The position numbers and the translations under genes were made by a program. A model generated the notes under the pieces. The model saw nothing but the letters and a program-made list of their open reading frames with translations, did no database searches and had not been told where the DNA came from. A DNA stretch of 33,729 nt from assembly GCA_023264635.1 (NCBI GenBank), contig JAHFLT010000006.1, positions 1-33,729 of the forward strand, given 5' to 3'. Shown piece after piece: positions 21,538-23,801 of the stretch. This DNA is from Candidatus Woesearchaeota archaeon (lineage in GTDB: Archaea > Nanobdellota > Nanobdellia > Woesearchaeales > JAGVYF01). Position 1 is the first letter of the stretch; every line of letters begins with the position of its first letter.

Positions 21538-21648
21538 GGGGGTGTAGTATAACCTGGCTAGAATAGGAGGCTCCAGATGGAGCGATGAGCCGCGAGGCGA
21601 TGAATGAGAAGATACCTTCGGATCAGGGTTCGAATCCCTGCACCCCCA
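21538..21648 (+). tRNA. tRNA-Trp (CCA) with a 37-nt intron
   Basis: Acceptor GGGGGTG (21538-21544) pairs with CACCCCC (21641-21647), discriminator A. T-arm CAGGG-TTCGAAT-CCCTG is canonical. The anticodon stem GGAGG (21566-21570) pairs with CCTTC (21615-21619), giving loop CTCCAGA once the intron is removed. Anticodon CCA is at 21573-21575. The intron spans 21577-21613, after position 37 as usual for archaeal tRNA-Trp; AGAT at both junctions makes the exact cut ambiguous by one base. The D-stem has an A12/A23 mismatch. No 3' CCA is encoded. A T-rich tract follows. A strict bulge-helix-bulge fold was not confirmed by eye. Confidence 0.92.
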
Positions 21649-21713
21649 CTTTTATTGCCTCTTTTGTATTAACCCAAAAAGCTGCATCCCCAAACTCTCC
21701 CACATATTCCCAC

Positions 21714-22262: not shown

Positions 22263-22331
22263 GTTTTATATAGAGGTACTAATTTCCATACAGTTATGGC
22301 AACACTAGTTGGTTCTATTCATTGTGCGTGA
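22263..22331 (+). promoter_or_regulatory. putative promoter and 11-codon leader ORF upstream of tRNA-His-like element and hisS
   Basis: TTTTATATAG (22263-22272) is a strong TATA. An ATG at 22296, about 28 bp downstream, opens an 11-codon ORF with one His codon near its end (stop at 22331). A T-rich tract follows (22333-22352). This could start a long hisS leader, or a separate short transcript. Confidence 0.4.
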
Positions 22332-22414
22332 AGTAGATTTTTCTATTTTAATTTATAGTAGTTGTGATTGTGTTCATTACCAGCAATAGCTCTGTTTGTC
22401 CTGTTCCTGATTTT

Positions 22415-22486
22415 GGCAATGGTGATGTAACGGTAGCACGTAAGCTTGTGGAGCTTAAAGTTTGGTGTCAACTCCCAGCCATCGTC
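22415..22486 (+). tRNA. tRNA-His (GTG), or a tRNA-His-like element in the hisS leader
   Basis: The fold fits tRNA-His: G-1 at 22415 opposite C73 at 22486; acceptor GCAATGG/CCATCGT; D-loop AACGGTA; anticodon stem TAAGC/GCTTA with loop TTGTGGA (GTG at 22448-22450); variable loop AAGT; T-arm TTGGT-GTCAACT-CCCAG. G-1, C73 and the GTG anticodon are the known HisRS identity elements. Several canonical features are broken: A3/C70, A10/C25 and T53/C61 mismatches, and T54 is G where TTCAACT is expected. The tRNA-Trp nearby is canonical. T-rich sequence follows. It could be a diverged gene, a pseudogene, or a regulatory mimic, because hisS starts 58 nt downstream. Confidence 0.6.
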
Positions 22487-22544
22487 CTGTTTTACTTCAT
22501 TTTTTGCACAACAATTATAAAAGGAAAAACATGGAGGTATGAAA

Positions 22545-23801
22545 ATGGAACGCGTTAAAGGAACCTTTGACTTTTATCCCGAAGAGAAGTACGCCAAGGA
22601 GCTGACTCTGGATACGCTTAGGAGCGTCGCTGAGAGAGCTGGATTTCTCTGGGTTGAGACACCAGCAATTGAGACAATAAAGCTGCTTACTCGCAAAAGC
22701 GGCGAAGAAGTAAAGAATCAGATTTTTGTGATTGAACAAAGAGGAAGTGAACAATTCGGATTACGCTTTGACATGACTGTCCCTCTCACCAGAATGTTTA
22801 TTGCAAAACAAAAAGAATTACCAAAACCTGTTAAGTGGTGTTACAGCACTCGCATGTGGCGTTATGAATCCCCACAGAAGGGAAGACTACGCGAGTTCTA
22901 TCAATATGGTATTGAAATTTTTGGGGCAAAAACAGCAGCTTCAGATGCTGAGACAATACAATTGCTCCTTGAATCATTGTTTGCGTTAGGGATAACAGAA
23001 AATGACATTGTTGTTAAGGTGAGCAATAGAAAACTTATCCAAGGATTATTGTATGATCTTGTTCCAAAAGAGAAAATGGAAGAAGTGCTCCTGATCATTG
23101 ACAAGGCGCAGAAGGTAACAAGAGAAGATGCAGCAACTCAGCTTGAGAAAGTTGGAATAAAAAAAGTAAAGGAAATACTGCACCTCCTTGATATCAAAGG
23201 CACTCCAAAAAAAGTCTTTGAAGACGTTGCTTCATTTGAATTAAATGAGCTTGCAAAAGAAGGATTAGAGGAACTCAAAGCTGTGCTTGGGCTTGTGCGA
23301 TCTCCATGCATTGTTGTTGATCTTTCGACCGTCAGAGGACTGGCTTATTATACGGGCATAGTCTTTGAGTGCGTTGATAAAGAAGGGAAATACCGTGCTC
23401 TGGCAGGCGGTGGAAGATATGATGATCTTGTACAATTGCTTGGTGGAGAACCAACACCTGCTGTAGGTTTTGCAGTAGGCTATGCGACTTTATCATTGGT
23501 TCTTAGTGAGTTGAATCGTTTGCCGAAAAAAAGACTGTCACCTCAGATTTATTGTGTAGTGATAGAAGAAAATGTAAGACCTGATGCTTTGAAGATTGTG
23601 CAAAAGCTGCGTAGGAAGTATGTTGTTGAAGTTGATCTCCTTAGCAGAAAGGTTGGCAAACAAGTCGAGTATGCCAATGTGCTTGGCGCGCAGTACGTAG
23701 TTTTTATAGGGCCTGATGAAATCAAGCAAAAAAAAGTCAAGCTGCGTGATATGAAGAGCGGAAAAGAGACTTTACTAGACCCGGAGAAGATAGAGGTATA
23801 G
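22545..23801 (+). CDS. hisS: histidyl-tRNA synthetase
   Basis: 418 aa from the ATG at 22545, six bases after GGAGGT (22533-22538); the ATG at 22539 directly abuts this site and is less likely. Class II core: motif 2-type block (FGLRFDMTVPLTRM ... RMWRYESPQKGRLREFYQYGIEIFG), the HisRS histidine-binding peptide LAYYTG near residue 260, and motif 3 region LAGGGRYDDL. A C-terminal anticodon-binding domain covers about the last 90 residues. It charges tRNA-His. A TATA-like TTATAAAAG at about 22513 would start transcription after the Shine-Dalgarno site, so a start farther upstream, including the tRNA-His-like element in the leader, is plausible. It is followed closely by an aminotransferase gene. 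Confidence 0.96.
   Translation: MERVKGTFDFYPEEKYAKELTLDTLRSVAERAGFLWVETPAIETIKLLTRKSGEEVKNQIFVIEQRGSEQFGLRFDMTVPLTRMFIAKQKELPKPVKWCYSTRMWRYESPQKGRLREFYQYGIEIFGAKTAASDAETIQLLLESLFALGITENDIVVKVSNRKLIQGLLYDLVPKEKMEEVLLIIDKAQKVTREDAATQLEKVGIKKVKEILHLLDIKGTPKKVFEDVASFELNELAKEGLEELKAVLGLVRSPCIVVDLSTVRGLAYYTGIVFECVDKEGKYRALAGGGRYDDLVQLLGGEPTPAVGFAVGYATLSLVLSELNRLPKKRLSPQIYCVVIEENVRPDALKIVQKLRRKYVVEVDLLSRKVGKQVEYANVLGAQYVVFIGPDEIKQKKVKLRDMKSGKETLLDPEKIEV

Follow-up and report, generated by a model that had tools for sequence, protein, structure and literature searches.

A candidate histidine-sensing leader-peptide attenuator upstream of tRNA-His and hisS in a woesearchaeal genome

A conserved His-codon reading frame precedes tRNA-His and hisS

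The region upstream of the histidyl-tRNA synthetase gene hisS in the window, the 33,729-nt stretch of woesearchaeal DNA analysed here, is probably a histidine-sensing leader-peptide attenuator, in which translation of a short upstream open reading frame (uORF) would be coupled to a U-tract terminator and no hairpin pair of the bacterial type would take part. The uORF is conserved, shows specificity for histidine, is attached to tRNA-His, hisS and his genes, and occurs together with a characteristically spaced promoter and a T-rich tract. The window lies on contig C16 of an archaeal host genome of 1.32 Mb (46 contigs; 96 % complete). Among the archaeal proteins that it encodes are TFE-alpha, XerA and an archaeal-type aspartate aminotransferase.

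All elements of the locus lie on the forward strand. The leader promoter (P1) has a TATA box (22264–22271) that starts 32 nt before the ATG of an 11-codon uORF (22296–22331). This uORF encodes MATLVGSIHCA*, its His codon being CAT (22320–22322). Just 3' of the uORF is a T-rich tract, TTTTTCTATTTT (22338–22349), which incorporates two runs of at least four T residues and constitutes a candidate archaeal U-tract terminator. It is followed by a tRNA-His(GTG) gene with unusual mismatches (22415–22486) and, after a spacing of 58 nt, by hisS (22545–23801; NCBIfam TIGR00442, 366.5 bits against a cut-off of 286.75; Pfam tRNA-synt_His). A TATA-like site (P2; 22515–22522) is situated 30 nt before the hisS ATG and may give rise to a leaderless hisS transcript, and a predicted Shine-Dalgarno sequence, GGAGGT (22533–22538), would be of use to hisS on transcripts from P1 only. 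The distance of approximately 30 nt between TATA and ATG implies a leaderless start from P1 and P2 alike. The TATA box, the 11-codon reading frame with its His codon, the hisS Shine-Dalgarno sequence and the second TATA-like site had all been listed in the initial annotation, and all are present.

The uORF family and its promoter

The reading frame at 22296–22331 belongs to a conserved uORF family with the consensus [RK]-[VA]-[DG]-[CYF]-[ILV]-H-x*. The stretch that is clearly common to the leaders of the window, of its only same-genus relative (G001) and of G025 is TTCATTGTGNGT, and a degenerate search finds a match in many hisS leaders. The encoded peptides include MRVGCLHCK* in G001, MNSNEADYIHCE* in G025, MTRVDCLHR* in G037, MARVDFIH* in G006 and MKKVDFIHHLR* in G016, and that of the window, with SIH rather than CIH, is among the more divergent members. 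In nearly all uORFs, an in-frame ATG precedes the motif by a few codons, and the His codon is followed by a stop no more than a few codons further on. Each uORF contains one or two His codons, without a run. Among the leaderless-type uORFs with a TATA box, this box starts 28 to 34 nt before the ATG in 45/54 cases, which implies that the transcripts are leaderless. In several genomes, a second type of uORF, led by a Shine-Dalgarno sequence and with the consensus EAKxQxSAGCIH, lies in the interval between tRNA-His and the gene that follows. The codons next to the His codon almost always have T as their third base and the residues before His are conserved, so that selection may also act on the motif itself, as RNA or DNA, or on a nascent peptide that stalls the ribosome. 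In G025, a tandem second frame ending in FIHCE* immediately follows the first uORF (L034, 1239–1301), resembling a duplicated sensor.

Specificity for histidine and linked genes

The identity of the candidate sensing codon was examined with an open-codon search of 241 genomes, using the pattern GYTGRTTGTMTTNNNTGY with the sensing codon given as NNN, a reversed pattern as control and no use of hisS. CAT or CAC was found in 25 of the 47 matches, with 17 matches in the control. The 22 non-His matches are distributed over fourteen codons, none of which occurs more than four times, and are thus at about the level of this control. All 25 His matches are located in histidine loci, with 23 preceding tRNA-His, hisS or a his gene and two directly following tRNA-His. 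When the His codon was fixed, a search of 371 genomes, which likewise made no use of hisS, and which covered genomes of the phylum yielded 29 matches in 28 genomes, and none in the control. Six of these matches are outside the order to which the window belongs and all six precede hisS, five with tRNA-His between the uORF and hisS and the remaining one with a HisGE-like gene in this position.

Among the distinct uORFs, a set which was partly collected from hisS loci, 73/78 have a tRNA-His, HisS or his gene within 3.3 kb downstream. The his genes include those for HisG (L260, L266 and L267), HisG-HisE fusions (L230 and L244), HisI (L245 and L266), HisIE (L267) and HisD (L266), as well as a HisC-HisB-like aminotransferase-HAD fusion (L255 and L262). 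Also downstream of uORFs are genes for a HisS-like protein (L241) and, at L240, for an aromatic amino acid lyase belonging to the histidine ammonia-lyase (HAL) family. Within the 900 nt upstream of hisS, no uORF was found for many of the hisS genes of the order, nor for any of those checked outside the DPANN. The uORF system is thus widespread, but not universal. Judging from the sequences, short translated-looking reading frames with a His codon stand ahead of genes for histidine synthesis and tRNA charging, which is the arrangement expected of an attenuator. A gene for a GNAT acetyltransferase (...AEPPWNE...) also recurs in several genomes after a His-codon uORF, mostly following tRNA-His (L217, L251, L263, L264 and L159), and is possibly a member of the histidine regulon.

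Candidate termination signals and proposed mechanism

Archaeal transcription termination does not need a hairpin. U-tract termination by aCPSF1 is established, with the protein binding U4 tracts in Methanococcus and two tracts giving the highest termination efficacy (PMC8716108). In 67 % of the leaders, the 40 nt that follow the uORF stop contain a run of at least four T residues, as compared to 20 % at a distance of 80 to 120 nt. Together, these T-runs and U-tract termination by aCPSF1 make translation-coupled termination the simplest model. No hairpin terminator was found in the window with scan types (sigma-70, hairpin) that are ill-suited to archaea, and the folding of the window leader is no better than that of shuffled sequences. 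Furthermore, the motif TTCTAANTAGTT is enriched 3' of the uORF, being matched at 10/12 or more in 30 % of leaders and 3 % of shuffles; the motif had been selected visually in these very leaders.

In the mechanism that we infer, which comprises translation, stalling and termination as well as the direction of their effects, transcription from the TATA box at 22264 would start at or near the uORF ATG, and the 11-codon uORF would be translated leaderless. When charged His-tRNA is plentiful, the ribosome would translate past the His codon, finish at the stop and come off the RNA. The T-tract would then be open to termination by aCPSF1/FttA, and little tRNA-His-hisS transcript would be made. Under a shortage of histidine or charged tRNA-His, the ribosome would halt at the His codon and either block the termination factor or keep the polymerase coupled, so that transcription would continue into tRNA-His and hisS. 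Several points count against an attenuator, namely the presence of only one or two His codons, the near-constant third-position T of the neighbouring codons and the conserved residues before His, the weak overall signal for a helix between the uORF and downstream RNA, the divergent peptide of the window, and the many hisS genes of the order upstream of which the motif was not found. In addition, a possible hisS promoter at P2 (22515) would bypass the switch.

Pairing of GAGTTGR, within the uORF, with a downstream YCAACTC gives a predicted helix that is striking in some genomes, where paired changes occur (e.g. L147, L247, L043 and L255). The helix is convincing in approximately 15/54 leaders and weak overall (mean z -0.47 ± 0.19), and was dropped as a general feature on account of this small mean effect.

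Alternative readings of the uORF

The uORF may instead sense histidine or charged tRNA-His and control translation, or act by nascent-peptide arrest, without termination of transcription. In the case of arrest, [VA][DG]C[IL]H would stall within the exit tunnel, and access to the downstream start or Shine-Dalgarno sequence would be altered by the arrested ribosome. The conserved residues before His agree with this, as do the second uORFs that are Shine-Dalgarno-led, carry the longer EAKxQxSAGCIH and directly precede the downstream gene, and the paired changes in the subset of leaders with the helix. However, most uORFs, including that of the window, are separated from the regulated start by 100 to 250 nt and a tRNA gene, a distance that suits termination better, and T-runs follow the uORF. 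Control of this kind is considered rather unlikely as an explanation of the family.

It is still less probable that the locus is an ordinary tRNA-His-hisS operon, with the motif serving a histidine-responsive regulator as its DNA operator close to the start site and the reading frame being incidental: the nearly invariant third-position T, the conservation at nucleotide level and the nearby TATA box would fit an operator, but an in-frame ATG and an in-frame stop, each at a varying distance of a few codons on its side of the motif, accompany almost every instance, synonymous changes occur in the His (CAT/CAC) and Cys (TGT/TGC) codons, and the Shine-Dalgarno-led copies lie 3' of the tRNA, at a distance from the promoter.

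The tRNA-His gene

The element at 22415–22486 is most likely the hisS-linked tRNA-His gene of this woesearchaeon, carried in the operon that the attenuator would control. Rfam RF00005 matches positions 22416–22486 with 34.5 bits (gathering score 29). A tRNA-His covariance model built on the genes of eight relatives, with that of the window left out, recovers the element as its top match in the genome, with 64.4 bits (E ~1e-14), the relatives themselves scoring 71 to 95 bits. ARAGORN does not call it. The GTG anticodon, G-1 (22415) and C73 (22486) are retained, and the A3/C70, A10/C25 and T53/C61 mismatches and the T-loop GTCAACT are present, all as initially annotated. G10, G53 and T54 are all lost, and three positions do not pair. 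A comparison was made across 31 tRNA-His genes, every one with the anticodon GTG. The thirty from other genomes have a mean of 0.33 mismatches; all of them have T54, one is without G10 and one is without G53. No other tRNA-His examined combines three mismatches with the absence of G10, G53 and T54. The gene in the window departs from a cloverleaf with conserved G10, G53 and T54, though it fits the relatives' model. The predicted fold of the unmodified tRNA is not a cloverleaf, whereas a cloverleaf is predicted for the gene of the same-genus relative. C-to-U repair could mend the A3/C70 and A10/C25 pairs, but not T53/C61 or G54.

A scan of the 96 %-complete genome with Rfam, the His model and a D-arm/anticodon pattern found no second tRNA-His, which favours a working gene. 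The D-arm/anticodon pattern has one other match in the genome, which is not tRNA-like. The His model picks up tRNAs with long T-loop introns at 14 to 17 bits, even those for other amino acids, and a hidden tRNA-His with such an intron should therefore have been seen. A fully canonical tRNA-His is found at the same place in G001. Similarly, tRNA-His is located upstream of hisS in G005, G006, G009, G025, G037 and G038, in two cases with an intron, and downstream of hisS in G023. The linkage of tRNA-His and hisS thus recurs within the order, and tRNA-His genes also follow the uORF where hisS is not adjacent. An intron-bearing tRNA-His at this position must be processed as a tRNA, and a gene that is canonical or spliced is not a mimic. 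In G002, a relative from the family of the window, the only HisS is divergent (32 % identity), and a search for tRNA-His at E 1e-8 gave no match.

The initial annotation had proposed that the element may be a mimic bound by HisRS as feedback. This is not the best reading, given that the relatives have a canonical or intron-bearing tRNA at this place. In such a reading, the element would be a decaying or dedicated mimic through which HisRS represses its own synthesis, as in E. coli thrS, and the working tRNA-His would be in unassembled sequence. The unmatched combination of mismatches and lost bases speaks for it, as does the predicted fold in the window, which is not cloverleaf in contrast to that of the same-genus relative. 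In G025, a degenerate hisS-linked copy, with an intron and three mismatches (L034), occurs alongside a clean, intronless copy elsewhere (L096/L110), and this is the only genome with a tRNA-His separate from the hisS-linked one. A clean tRNA-His may, as this pair hints, be missing from the assembly of the window's genome. Against a mimic stand the lack of a second match for tRNA-His in the 96 %-complete genome, the canonical same-genus orthologue and the introns in relatives' tRNAs at this place. Furthermore, the likeness to the thrS operator consists of a sequence resembling a tRNA ahead of a synthetase gene, but the element in the window is a tRNA gene which ends 58 nt from the hisS start codon, with the Shine-Dalgarno sequence outside it. 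Neither the overlap with the ribosome site nor the pairing of an unprocessed mimic with a separate tRNA gene, by which a thrS-type mimic would be recognised, was found. A mimic is thus regarded as improbable. The wider proposal of a regulated hisS leader is supported, with the His-codon uORF, rather than a tRNA mimic, as the most likely sensor.

Comparison with known systems

As in hisL and other bacterial amino-acid leader attenuators, a short 5' reading frame with the cognate codon is placed before genes for synthesis and tRNA charging, and is followed by a terminator-like signal. Bacterial his leaders carry long runs of His codons. The archaeal uORF differs in being leaderless, in having one or two His codons and conserved residues before them, in the absence of a bacterial terminator hairpin and in the presence of a tRNA-His gene inside the controlled transcript. 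The start MTRV, as in the G037 peptide, is presumably shared with E. coli HisL. The system would accordingly work like bacterial his attenuation with neither a His run nor hairpins, and is not a member of the hisL family. Arrest leaders of the TnaC type similarly have conserved residues upstream of a critical codon, but in the uORF the sensed amino acid is itself encoded at the critical position and no pocket for a free ligand is evident. T-box riboswitches also exert leader control over synthetase and amino-acid genes through tRNA charging, and T-boxes of his genes occur in Firmicutes. The sensor here, in contrast, is a translated-looking uORF, and Rfam shows no T-box or other non-tRNA RNA family in the window, with a targeted scan adding a tmRNA match on an intron-bearing tRNA-Trp.

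According to a 2021 paper on transcription in archaea, no example of attenuation or antitermination was known there at the time (PMC8448881), and no later case of an archaeal leader peptide or attenuation was found in the open-access literature. We lean towards viewing the present system as the first example of archaeal attenuation, in which a leaderless leader of one or two His codons, coupled to U-tract termination without a hairpin, would control all of the histidine regulon (tRNA-His, hisS, hisG/E/I/D and a hisC-HAD fusion) throughout a DPANN class. A conserved His-codon leader would demonstrate ribosome-mediated sensing of tRNA charging in a large archaeal class, in a form suited to leaderless mRNAs and U-tract termination. 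It would place tRNA-His, its synthetase and histidine synthesis under one signal in organisms that are thought to be host-dependent, and would offer a compact, testable element and a route to further archaeal leader peptides.

Introns and repeats in tRNA genes of the host genome

The tRNA-Trp(CCA) gene in the window (21538–21649) has an intron of approximately 37 nt in the anticodon arm and lies approximately 650 nt upstream of the hisS leader. Many tRNA genes of the host genome contain T-loop introns after TTCRA(A), some of nearly 400 nt (L079, tRNA-Glu). Such introns are found at the loci L024, L028, L077, L078 and L079 (contigs C22, C6, C29, C14 and C3, respectively). Introns also occur at the anticodon, in the D-loop and in the variable loop, and are missed by standard tRNA finders. 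A repeat family with the ends CAGCTTTTTG ... CCAAAAACCTGGGAAAA is present in tRNA introns, beside tRNA 3' ends, in a tandem array and in the 16S rRNA gene. Members of this family are found at L005, L013, L023, L026 and L077, while the insertion in the 16S rRNA gene (L029) is approximately 190 nt in length.
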